DNA from: SAR86 cluster bacterium AG-422-E19
Lineage (GTDB): Bacteria; Pseudomonadota; Gammaproteobacteria; Magnimaribacterales; AG-339-G14
Reading direction: 5' to 3'
Assembly (NCBI GenBank): GCA_003213595.1
Contig: QCMR01000003.1
Coordinates: 71,346-133,638, forward strand
Length of the DNA: 62,293 nucleotides
Shown here: one piece after another, positions 6,801 to 9,124 of the stretch
How the letters are laid out: each line of letters starts with the position of its first letter
Numbering within the stretch: position 1 is the stretch's first letter
Translations under genes and position numbers: made by a program
Notes under the pieces: generated by a model
What the model was told of the DNA's origin: nothing
The model's database searches: none
The model's input: only the letters and a program-made list of their open reading frames with translations

Positions 6801-8108
6801 TTATTTTGACGCTTTGTCTATAGCTTGAGAAATATCTGCAATGATATCTTCGGCATTTTCAATACCAATGGATAACCTTACATATCCAGGTGTCACTCCT
6901 GCAGATAACTGCTCCTCAGGAGCAAGCTGACTATGAGTCGTTGTTGCTGGATGAATGGCAAGAGATCTTGAATCTCCAATATTTGCAACATGATAAAGAA
7001 GCTCTAAGGAATCAATAAATTTACTTCCAGCTTCTTTTCCACCAGGCAGCTCAAAACCGATAAGAGCACCATAACCACCGGTCATGTATTTATCTGCTTT
7101 TTCTTTTTCGGCACCTTCAAAAAGACCAGGATAAGTAACTGATTGGACTTTTTTGTTAGAAGCCAAAAATTCAGCAACTTGTTGTGCATTGTTAGCATGT
7201 TCGCGCATTCTCAAAGGCAAGGTTTCTAATCCTTGTATAAACATCCATGCGTTGAAAGGGCTCATAGCTCCACCCAAGTCTCTAAGAAGAGTAGTTCTTA
7301 ATTTGAGTAAGTAAGCAAATGGTAAGCCCATGTTTTTGGTCACTTGCTCATCCCAGACAACGCCACCATAACAAGGATCAGGAGTATTTAAAGCAGGCTG
7401 TCTATCTGCGCCAGCTTTGCCCCAATCAAAATTACCCCCATCAAGGATAAGCCCTCCGATAGTTGTTCCATGCCCGCCTATGTATTTTGTAGTTGAATAG
7501 GTAGTTACTGCAGCACCGTGGTCAAATGGACGACAAAGAACTGGGGCAGCCGTATTGTCTACGATCAAAGGTATGTCGTGTTTTCTACCTATTTCTGCAA
7601 CTTCACCAATTGGAAATACTTGAAGTTTCGGATTAGGCAGAGTTTCTGCAAAATAAGCTCTGGTTTTATCGTCAGTAGCTTTTTCAAAATTAGCTGGATC
7701 AGTAGGATCTACAAATCTAACTTCAATTCCCATTTCTTTAAGATTGTTTTTAAACTGGTTGTACGTTCCGCCATACAAATGTGAAGAAGAAACAATGTTA
7801 TCCCCTGCTCTAGCAACGTTTTGAATTGAATACGCCGATGCGGTTTGTCCCGAAGAAACAGCCAAACCTGCTGCTGCTCCATCTAAAGCTGCCATTCTTT
7901 GTTCTAGTACGTCACAAGTTGGGTTCATGATTCGGGTATAAATGTTTCCGAATTCCTGCAAACCAAATAGGCTTGCTGCATGAGCAGTATCGTTGAACTG
8001 ATAACTTGTAGTTTGGTGAATGGGAACAGCTACCGAACCGGTAGTTTCATCATTACGCCACCCCGCGTGCAGAGCAATCGTCTCTAAATTTTTTCCTTCA
8101 TATGCCAT
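6801..8108 (-). CDS. metY: O-acetylhomoserine aminocarboxypropyltransferase (sulfhydrylase) MetY
   Basis: 435 residues, Cys/Met-metabolism PLP enzyme. The Schiff-base lysine is K208 in TTYSTTKYIGG. PLP-phosphate binding residues lie in SSGQTASAY (about 85-93) and YTRIMNPT (57-64). The length and insertions (about 425-435, versus about 390 for MetB/MetZ) favour MetY, which makes homocysteine from O-acetylhomoserine and sulfide. The ATG at 8108 is preceded by GGAG at a normal distance. The gene is monocistronic between its own terminators, and expression is probably controlled by the SAM-II riboswitch in its leader. O-succinylhomoserine as the substrate is possible but less likely. Confidence 0.93.
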   Translation of the reverse strand: MAYEGKNLETIALHAGWRNDETTGSVAVPIHQTTSYQFNDTAHAASLFGLQEFGNIYTRIMNPTCDVLEQRMAALDGAAAGLAVSSGQTASAYSIQNVARAGDNIVSSSHLYGGTYNQFKNNLKEMGIEVRFVDPTDPANFEKATDDKTRAYFAETLPNPKLQVFPIGEVAEIGRKHDIPLIVDNTAAPVLCRPFDHGAAVTTYSTTKYIGGHGTTIGGLILDGGNFDWGKAGADRQPALNTPDPCYGGVVWDEQVTKNMGLPFAYLLKLRTTLLRDLGGAMSPFNAWMFIQGLETLPLRMREHANNAQQVAEFLASNKKVQSVTYPGLFEGAEKEKADKYMTGGYGALIGFELPGGKEAGSKFIDSLELLYHVANIGDSRSLAIHPATTTHSQLAPEEQLSAGVTPGYVRLSIGIENAEDIIADISQAIDKASK

Positions 8109-8129
8109 GGTTTATCTCCATAAATTATT

Positions 8130-8161
8130 AAAAAAAACCTGTTTGCTTTCGCTAAACAGGT
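8130..8161 (-). terminator. Leader terminator (attenuator) of metY
   Basis: On the minus strand ACCUGUUU and AAACAGGU form an 8-bp stem, extended by GC/GC with one bulged A and closed by a GAAA tetraloop, then directly followed by a run of eight U. It lies 9 bases after the aptamer and 21 bases before the metY start codon. That makes it a premature terminator in the leader rather than the end of another gene. Its 5' arm (CCUGUUUAGC) is also complementary to the aptamer 3' strand. Confidence 0.85.
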
Positions 8162-8170
8162 CAAAAAAAA

Positions 8171-8223
8171 TCCTATTTAGCAAATTTTATAAAGCGTTTG
8201 CAAGTCGGTTAAATCAACGCTAT
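8171..8223 (-). promoter_or_regulatory. SAM-II (SAM-alpha) riboswitch aptamer upstream of metY
   Basis: Minus strand. P1 is AGCGUU (8221-8216) pairing with AACGCU (8198-8193). Its 17-base loop is GAUUUAACCGACUUGCA, followed by AUAAA and the 3' strand GCUAAAUAGG (8181-8172). From memory, the crystallised Sargasso Sea metX SAM-II element has the same P1 length and the same 17-base loop apart from two positions, as well as the AUAAA and GCUAAA-x-AGG blocks. SAM-II is an H-type pseudoknot sensing S-adenosylmethionine. A minus-strand TATATT at 8235-8230 would start the RNA right at the aptamer's 5' edge. Confidence 0.9.
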
Positions 8224-8226
8224 AAA
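8198..8226 (+). promoter_or_regulatory. Candidate promoter of the echA operon, inside riboswitch DNA
   Basis: TTGCAA (8198-8203) and TATAAA (8221-8226) are spaced by exactly 17 bases on the plus strand. They predict a start near 8233 and a leader of about 30 bases to the echA ATG at 8264. The elements overlap the DNA encoding the metY aptamer on the other strand. TTGCAA is also part of the conserved aptamer loop, so its hexamer match may be partly coincidental. Confidence 0.5.
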
Positions 8227-8263
8227 TGCAATATACACAAAAATATCAAAAAAGAGAAAAAAA

Positions 8264-9124
8264 ATGAAAGATTTTGAAAGTTTGAAAACTTCTACAAAAA
8301 ATAAAGTTTTAACGGTCGTCTTCAATAGGCCTGAAAAAATGAATACCTTTTCTGGACAAATGTTAAAAGATATTTTGGAGCTTCTAGATGAGGCCGAAAA
8401 AGATGATGACATTCGAGCAGTTATTTTTACTGGTTCTGGAAAAGCCTTTTGTGCCGGAGCTGACCTATCTTCAGGTGAGGATACTTTTGATATGTCCGAC
8501 AAAGGCGAAGCTAAATCTGAAGTTAAAAGAGATACTGGCGGAATACTTACTTTAAGATTGTTTGACTTTAAAAAACCATTGATTGCAGCAATAAACGGAG
8601 CAGCTGTAGGCGTAGGTGTGACTATGACACTTCCGATGGATGTCAGAATATGTTCTGAGAAGGCTAAATTTGGATTCGTGTTTGCCAAAAGAGGAATCGT
8701 CCCTGAGGCTTGTTCAAGTTGGTTCCTTCCTAAAATTGTAGGTATTTCTAATGCTCTGCAGTGGTGCCTGTCTGGAAAAATTTTTATGCCTAAAGAAGCT
8801 CTAGATAAAGGATTGGTTACGGAAGTTACTCCAGAAGATAAATTACTAGAAAGAGCTGAAGAAATAGCAGCAGATTTTGTAGAAGCTACTTCTAGCCTTT
8901 CAGTAACTCTTATCAGGCAAATGTTGTGGAAAATGCTAGGCGCTGATCATCCTATGGAAGCACACAAAATTGACTCCCGAGGAGTATATTCACTTGGTAA
9001 AACTGGTGAAGCAGGTGAAGGCGTAATGTCTTTTTTAGAAAAGAGAGAGCCAAATTTTCCTGGAAAGGTCAGCAAAGATTTGCCTGAATTTTACCCATGG
9101 TGGGATGACAAAGAATTCAAATAA
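8264..9124 (+). CDS. Enoyl-CoA hydratase/isomerase (crotonase) family protein
   Basis: 286 residues. The crotonase fold shows the oxyanion-hole segments FCAGADLSSG (62-71) and NGAAVGVGVT (111-120), and a catalytic-type acid E148 in IVPEACSSW. The PEA context is common in uncharacterised marine crotonases. It hydrates or isomerises an enoyl-CoA; the chain specificity cannot be read. It is followed by the carboxyltransferase with a TAATG overlap, then by an aldehyde dehydrogenase, suggesting a short catabolic operon. Start ATG 8264 with AAGAG upstream. Genuine fatty-acid hydratase activity is not certain. Confidence 0.88.
   Translation: MKDFESLKTSTKNKVLTVVFNRPEKMNTFSGQMLKDILELLDEAEKDDDIRAVIFTGSGKAFCAGADLSSGEDTFDMSDKGEAKSEVKRDTGGILTLRLFDFKKPLIAAINGAAVGVGVTMTLPMDVRICSEKAKFGFVFAKRGIVPEACSSWFLPKIVGISNALQWCLSGKIFMPKEALDKGLVTEVTPEDKLLERAEEIAADFVEATSSLSVTLIRQMLWKMLGADHPMEAHKIDSRGVYSLGKTGEAGEGVMSFLEKREPNFPGKVSKDLPEFYPWWDDKEFK

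Follow-up and report, generated by a model that had tools for sequence, protein, structure and literature searches.

The window analysed here is a 62,293-nucleotide stretch of DNA from SAR86 cluster bacterium AG-422-E19. On its minus strand, the interval 8235-8109 can be read, in order, as a SAM-II aptamer, 11 nt of spacer, an intrinsic terminator whose U tract counts eight, and a GGAG ribosome binding site, followed by the metY start at 8108. The individual features are as follows.

8156..8230, minus strand: SAM-II (SAM_alpha, RF00521) aptamer match (cmscan 35.7 bits, E 8.9e-7, model positions 1-79 of 79)
8216..8221, minus strand: P1 5' strand AGCGUU, from sequence; pairs with 8193-8198 in the MFE fold
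8193..8198, minus strand: P1 3' strand AACGCU, from sequence and MFE fold
8200..8208, minus strand: candidate P2 5' strand CCGACUUGC, pseudoknot partner of the aptamer 3' strand, from sequence and SAM_alpha alignment
8172..8181, minus strand: aptamer 3' strand GCUAAAUAGG, both P2 3' strand and predicted antiterminator 5' arm, from sequence (antiterminator 0.95 when free)
8171-8161, minus strand: spacer, 11 nt, from sequence
8151..8160, minus strand: CCUGUUUAGC, both predicted antiterminator 3' arm and terminator 5' arm, from sequence, folding and conservation
8137..8161, minus strand: intrinsic terminator hairpin ACCUGUUUAGCGAAAGCAAACAGGU with bulged A and GAAA loop (dG -12.9; 0.99 when the 3' strand is held)
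8130..8137, minus strand: terminator U tract, 8 U, from sequence
8116..8119, minus strand: ribosome binding site GGAG, from sequence
6801..8108, minus strand: metY, O-acetylhomoserine aminocarboxypropyltransferase family (TIGR01326, 597 bits, cut-off 495.1)

The P2 register at 8200..8208 is one that we take from the general SAM-II fold rather than from computation. In the alignment, the last positions of the SAM_alpha model extend into the spacer and the terminator. The terminator stem consists of ACCUGUUU and AAACAGGU, and its dG was computed with one flanking base per side. A preliminary description of this locus had placed a terminator with a GAAA loop and eight U just before the metY ribosome site; it is present, and we add to it the bulged A and a GC/GC clamp beneath the loop. 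A simple terminator scan with a loop limit of 8 had no hit at 7900-8500; the likely reason is that the perfect stem encloses a loop of 9 bases. No promoter for the metY leader was identified.

Assignment of the aptamer class

The full-length SAM_alpha match (E value from a 251-base search) lies just below the cut-off of 36 bits, which is why the aptamer is absent from a gathering-threshold Rfam scan and was found by a permissive one; the leaders of close relatives (L002-L005) exceed the cut-off at 36.5-39.9 bits. All hallmarks of SAM-II are present by sequence, namely the P1 stem, the GAUUU..UUGC loop, the GCUAAA strand and a possible P2 pseudoknot, and the aptamer precedes a methionine/SAM gene, metY, identified above the TIGR01326 cut-off. 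The features of an attenuator are likewise found: the intrinsic terminator lies between aptamer and gene, and the antiterminator excludes both the bound aptamer, with which it shares 8181-8172 (P2), and the terminator, with which it shares 8160-8151. An Rfam scan gave no SAM-V match at 8050-8300.

Alternative pairings in the metY leader

Between GCUAAAUAGG (8181-8172) and CCUGUUUAGC (8160-8151), all 10 of 10 positions form standard pairs (GC CG UA AU AU AU UG AU GC GC). The complementarity of 10 base pairs with one G-U and an 11-nt loop, from which the earlier reading had started, was thus confirmed in every coordinate and pair. Full pairing with GCUAAAUAGG, with G-U allowed, occurs in 7 of the 124,568 10-mers of the window on both strands, the metY site included, and about 0.003 such pairings would be expected by chance in 50 nt. 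A scan of the window gave four terminator-like hairpins (dG <= -9, five T), and among these the full complement of GCUAAA is found only in that of the metY leader.

For 8235-8130, the minimum free energy (-23.2 kcal/mol, z -2.99) belongs to the antiterminator fold. The transcript was also folded in two-base steps, which gives equilibrium values in a model without pseudoknots. With the 3' strand free, the mean pair probability of the antiterminator was 0.92-1.00 from the emergence of CCUGU onwards; once the whole U tract had been added, the antiterminator stood at 0.95 versus 0.05 for the terminator. With 8181-8172 and the loop 8213-8202 held, the terminator reached 0.99.

Conservation within SAR86

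SAM_alpha matches (E<=0.01) were found in 33/40 genomes of the same family and in 116/203 genomes of the SAR86 order, spread over 20/22 genera. The SAR86 leader set comprises part of these matches, including 80 stretches fetched beyond the loci first listed. Aptamers were located by a pattern demanding P1 (a looser pattern gave many false aptamers), which missed eight loci (L123, L135, L143, L145, L194, L196, L203 and L207).

In a duplex shuffle test, the aptamer strand bound the terminator 5' arm at p<=0.05 in 57 of 66 distinct SAR86 leaders with a terminator. The nine failures include three leaders of a second SAM-II type whose terminators were wrongly called (L169, L184 and L192; counted among the 66 and left out of the 63-leader set used below); the others are L005, L021, L023 (arm shortened by rule), L120, L148 and L198. 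The full GCUAAA complement lies in the terminator arm of 46/63 distinct leaders, as against 0.4 expected from shuffles, a test that relies on the constant letters and not on the variable ones of each leader. Many SAR86 leaders carry the same 5' arm, CCUGUUUAGC, with a terminator 3' arm that varies (GCAAACAGG, GCAAGCAGG, GCUGGCAGG, GUUGGCAGG) and makes use of G-U pairs. Leaders of genus g3 have CCUGCUUAGC as their arm, or CCUGCUCAGC in the case of L017; its AGC sits in the terminator loop as folded, and is kept in 7/8 distinct leaders, with AGU in L023.

When the 63 leaders were folded with the strand free or held, 24 switched like the metY leader (terminator <0.5 free and >=0.8 held), 20 of them with a terminator at <=0.2 when free, and the window's own leader falls among these clear equilibrium switchers. 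In L140 the terminator reached only 0.71 when held. The terminator stood at >=0.5 even with a free strand in 38/63 leaders, and in these the antiterminator would have to act transiently during transcription or else be too weak. In attenuators, the antiterminator usually has a head start, and the polymerase has moved on by the time the RNA refolds.

At least 10 metY leaders of another SAR86 family are without a terminator (L113, L119, L132, L142, L147, L162, L177, L180, L193 and L204). By eye, five of them (L132, L142, L147, L177 and L180) carry GAGAA/UUCUC as a hairpin downstream of GCUAAA, and AUCAGCU/AGUUGAU may form an outer helix in them.

A second SAM-II type and tandem aptamers

In SAR86, 48 distinct leaders (for example L014, L016, L136, L173, L185, L195 and L201) belong to a second SAM-II type, GAUUUGAUCCUAUUGC .. 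GCUAAAACGGAA n UUCCcAGGAUUUAAC, which has no clear terminator. This type resembles SAM-II with the P2 3' strand broken by a small hairpin (GGAA/UUCC) and has an outer helix, AUCCU/AGGAU, both sides of which are changed in L181 (UCUU/AAGA). Across this type the outer helix gave no covariation beyond conservation (188 pairs, permuted mean 187.4). Some of these leaders precede a membrane-protein family (L014, L016, L136, L169, L170, L171, L173 and L192), and the one member scanned, from L192, matches fatty acid desaturase (PF00487), which is odd for a SAM riboswitch; other loci of the type precede a family whose one scanned member, the protein at L195, is a homocysteine S-methyltransferase (PF02574).

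Tandem arrangements were also observed. Two SAM-II aptamers lie 109-113 nt apart before the same membrane-protein family in L169, L171 and L192; passages of PMC9481103 already count 44 cases of tandem SAM-II. SAM-II is followed directly by SAM-I/IV (RF01725) in L026 (1501-1689, 61.0 bits) and L207 (1225-1404, 66.6 bits) and, by eye, in L059, L062, L126, L139 and L152; passages of the same source report seven such tandems counted earlier (PMC9481103).

Leaders of other Gammaproteobacteria and the covariation test

SAM-II was found in 91/275 sampled GTDB Gammaproteobacteria, a class that includes former betaproteobacteria; given this count, the notion that SAM-II is odd in itself in a gammaproteobacterium was dropped. 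Sporadic gammaproteobacterial SAM-II may reflect horizontal transfer, according to passages of the cited literature. The class sample consisted of 72 loci from 63 other genomes, mostly better-scoring matches; the P1 pattern missed two of the 72 (L220 and L234), and the remaining 70 gave 75 aptamer readings. The antiterminator passed the shuffle test in 46/55 of the leaders with a terminator, a count in which near-copies, such as L242 and L245 or the five loci of one genome, were kept. Outside SAR86, the usual letters in Gammaproteobacteria are GCUAAAGCGG or GCUAAAGCGA and CCUGCUUUAGC.

Covariation was examined in 64 SAR86 and 44 other distinct gammaproteobacterial leaders, with the second SAM-II type removed. 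In this pooled set, aptamer position X7 is paired in 95/108 leaders (permuted mean 51.8) and X8 in 94/108 (permuted mean 57.7), values which none of 5000 permutations reached. The standard pairs at X7 are G-C 40, U-G 27, C-G 21, U-A 5 and G-U 2, and those at X8 are A-U 63, C-G 30 and G-U 1. Neither position showed anything beyond chance inside SAR86 or inside the other group (at X7, 656/5000 permutations were as good within SAR86 and 5000/5000 within the other Gammaproteobacteria), and X9 and X10 were no better than permuted in any set. At X7, 11/64 SAR86 leaders carry a G-G or A-G mismatch. The covariation is thus a shift between the two groups that perhaps involved few events.

The letters of the arm itself are more informative. 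Outside SAR86, among leaders whose terminator pairs the column in question, arm U stands opposite aptamer A in 37/37, 31/34 and 19/20; the covariation anchor (5 of 6 pairs with GCUAAA) leans towards conserved U. The terminator partners of those U columns are mixed, mostly A and G, and opposite aptamer G at X9 the arm has U in 29 and C in 14. Such a pattern is what an arm with double duty would predict, and is more telling than the pooled covariation. In SAR86, arm C lies opposite aptamer A in 9/64 and 5/62 leaders at two columns. Of what the preliminary description had expected of homologous leaders, the conserved complementarity between aptamer strand and terminator arm is borne out in SAR86 and in the other Gammaproteobacteria, and the covariation in part: X7 and X8 shift jointly between the groups but not within either.

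Leaders of the alphaproteobacterial type

Among leaders of the PS1/OCS116 type, 6/9 distinct ones reach p<=0.05 when the whole 3' strand is used, with CUGGG against CCCGG, and 0/9 pass if only 13 nt of the 3' strand are used. A broader sample held the best 30 loci from the window's phylum outside its class, which were taken as alphaproteobacteria; a third search pattern missed one of the 30 (L301), and there were 29 distinct leaders. A terminator was present in 27/29, of which 16 passed and 11 failed the shuffle test. Those that passed use letters of the outer strand (for example GGCCGG/CCGGCC, GACCGG/CCGGUC or GGGCCG/CGGCUU), in a helix that omits GCUAA with the sole exception of L306.

Origin of metY

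MetY matches proteins from SAR86 cluster genomes, AG-899-P03 among them, at >=99.5% identity, which places the window in SAR86. It shares about 70-73% identity with MetY of PS1/OCS116/Rhodobiaceae-type alphaproteobacteria, versus 55% for the best other gammaproteobacterial match in the 252 genomes searched. In a quick tree of 59 proteins, the 19 MetY rows of SAR86 cluster together (95), and their sister consists of 10 PS1/OCS116/Rhodobiaceae-type rows (98 for both together). They are nested among alphaproteobacterial rows, in a group made up of 19 of these and the 19 from SAR86 (100), apart from 10 other gammaproteobacterial rows. Because of this placement and these identities, SAR86 metY was probably acquired from an alphaproteobacterium, likely by an old horizontal transfer, as judged from limited sampling and a quick tree. 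MetJ (PF01340) was detected in 0/61 SAR86 genomes, with E. coli detected as the positive control.

Discussion

Taken together, these observations make it very probable that a SAM-II riboswitch controls metY by transcription attenuation, as an OFF switch. When SAM is scarce, GCUAAAUAGG would be free and would pair with CCUGUUUAGC once the latter has been transcribed, and this antiterminator would block the terminator, so that metY is read. When SAM is bound, GCUAAAUAGG would be locked in the P2 pseudoknot helix and CCUGUUUAGC left free to pair with GCAAACAGG, whereupon RNA polymerase would stop at the eight U. The binding of SAM, actual termination and the direction of control are what we infer in this model. 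What the analysis shows is the sequence of the metY leader, two pairings that exclude each other, the probabilities computed for them and the fact that they are conserved.

The same leader could also be read as carrying a fixed terminator, or the 3' end of a leader small RNA, with SAM acting mainly elsewhere (on RNA stability or translation) and the complementarity incidental. We regard this as improbable. It draws support from the equilibrium folds of 38/63 SAR86 leaders, where the terminator prevails although the strand is free, and from the Sinorhizobium metA terminator, which follows a SAM-II aptamer and for which no effect of SAM is predicted in passages of PMC9373788. Against it, the GCUAAA complement recurs in SAR86 terminator arms far in excess of expectation, and genus g3 keeps this complement even though the folded terminator makes no use of it; in the metY leader, moreover, the state of the strand moves the computed terminator from 0.05 to 0.99. 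As to translation, the GGAG starts 53 nt beyond the end of GCUAAAUAGG, so that its direct occlusion by P2 is unlikely.

Less probable still is that two sequences are conserved separately, GCUAAA because SAM binding constrains it and the terminator arm by inheritance, with a pairing that has no present role. The lack of covariation within SAR86 and within the other group would fit such a history, but from one group to the other X7 and X8 change in aptamer and arm alike, and the terminator 3' arms of SAR86 differ while the 5' arm CCUGUUUAGC stays constant. In addition, the PS1/OCS116-type leaders and the best phylum leaders write the same competition in other letters (CUGGG/CCCGG; GGCCGG/CCGGCC and others). 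The three-state attenuation model proposed for this DNA is favoured by folding and by its conservation in SAR86 and other Gammaproteobacteria, with covariation contributing a shift between groups, and the mechanism is likely right for the metY leader. SAR86, an uncultured ocean lineage, would possess in it a compact three-state SAM-II switch. The leader of ~100 nt could serve as a good template for asking how the decision falls during transcription when the core strand of a pseudoknot aptamer is also part of an antiterminator.

A broader reading is more tentative, and we give it somewhat less than even credence: the leaders may represent two written forms of one SAM-II attenuator design, in which Gammaproteobacteria including SAR86 capture the core GCUAAA, whereas the alphaproteobacterial-type leaders sampled capture the outer P2 strand and leave most of GCUAAA out. 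SAR86, in which MetJ was not found, would then have taken up an alphaproteobacterial metY and yet run a gamma-type switch. In the SAM-II structure GCUAAA helps to hold SAM. If the two-form reading were true, a single gammaproteobacterial strand would carry both the ligand site and the switch. Specialists could take an interest in the fact that the gammaproteobacterial antiterminator draws on the core strand GCUAAA, as against the outer strand in the alphaproteobacterial-type leaders sampled.

In its logic, the SAR86 leader works like the SAM-I (S-box) attenuators of Firmicutes, where an aptamer strand is likewise shared with the antiterminator and the logic is OFF, with an aptamer unrelated to SAM-II. 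No earlier account of a SAR86 SAM-II switch was recognised in a non-exhaustive search of open-licence literature. That the three-state transcriptional design, put forward as noteworthy in the preliminary description, is new to SAM-II is not supported: SAM-II was already linked to terminators by Corbino 2005 (PMC1273637) and by Barrick and Breaker 2007 (PMC2258182), and a terminator/antiterminator fold has been reported for Gluconobacter (PMC5756330). The related statement that SAM-II usually acts on translation fits the model RNA of structural work, which, according to passages of PMC9373788 and PMC10907184, centres on an example thought to be translational.

The known metA, metZ and metY leaders with SAM-II (PMC1273637, PMC2258182, PMC9373788) are like that of SAR86 in aptamer class, target family, the terminator between P2 and the gene and the OFF logic. 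They differ in host, and the SAR86 antiterminator takes the core GCUAAA where the passing phylum leaders mostly take the outer P2 strand. For Sinorhizobium metZ, passages of Scheuer 2022 (PMC9373788) predict that SAM-II causes termination and describe an RZ small RNA that is higher in rich medium. The Gluconobacter oxydans leader, an alphaproteobacterial one, resembles that of SAR86 in its predicted terminator and antiterminator, with leader coverage 20 times that of the gene in the portion of PMC5756330 that describes it, a comparison made without its pairing letters. Finally, the Pelagibacter SAM-II/SAM-V tandem (passages of PMC9481103 and PMC11508383) is likewise marine and has SAM-II followed by a terminator. 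In every one of the original 120 tandems of this kind, according to passages of PMC9481103, a terminator comes after SAM-II. The SAR86 leader differs in having its SAM-II aptamer and terminator without a SAM-V match at 8050-8300.
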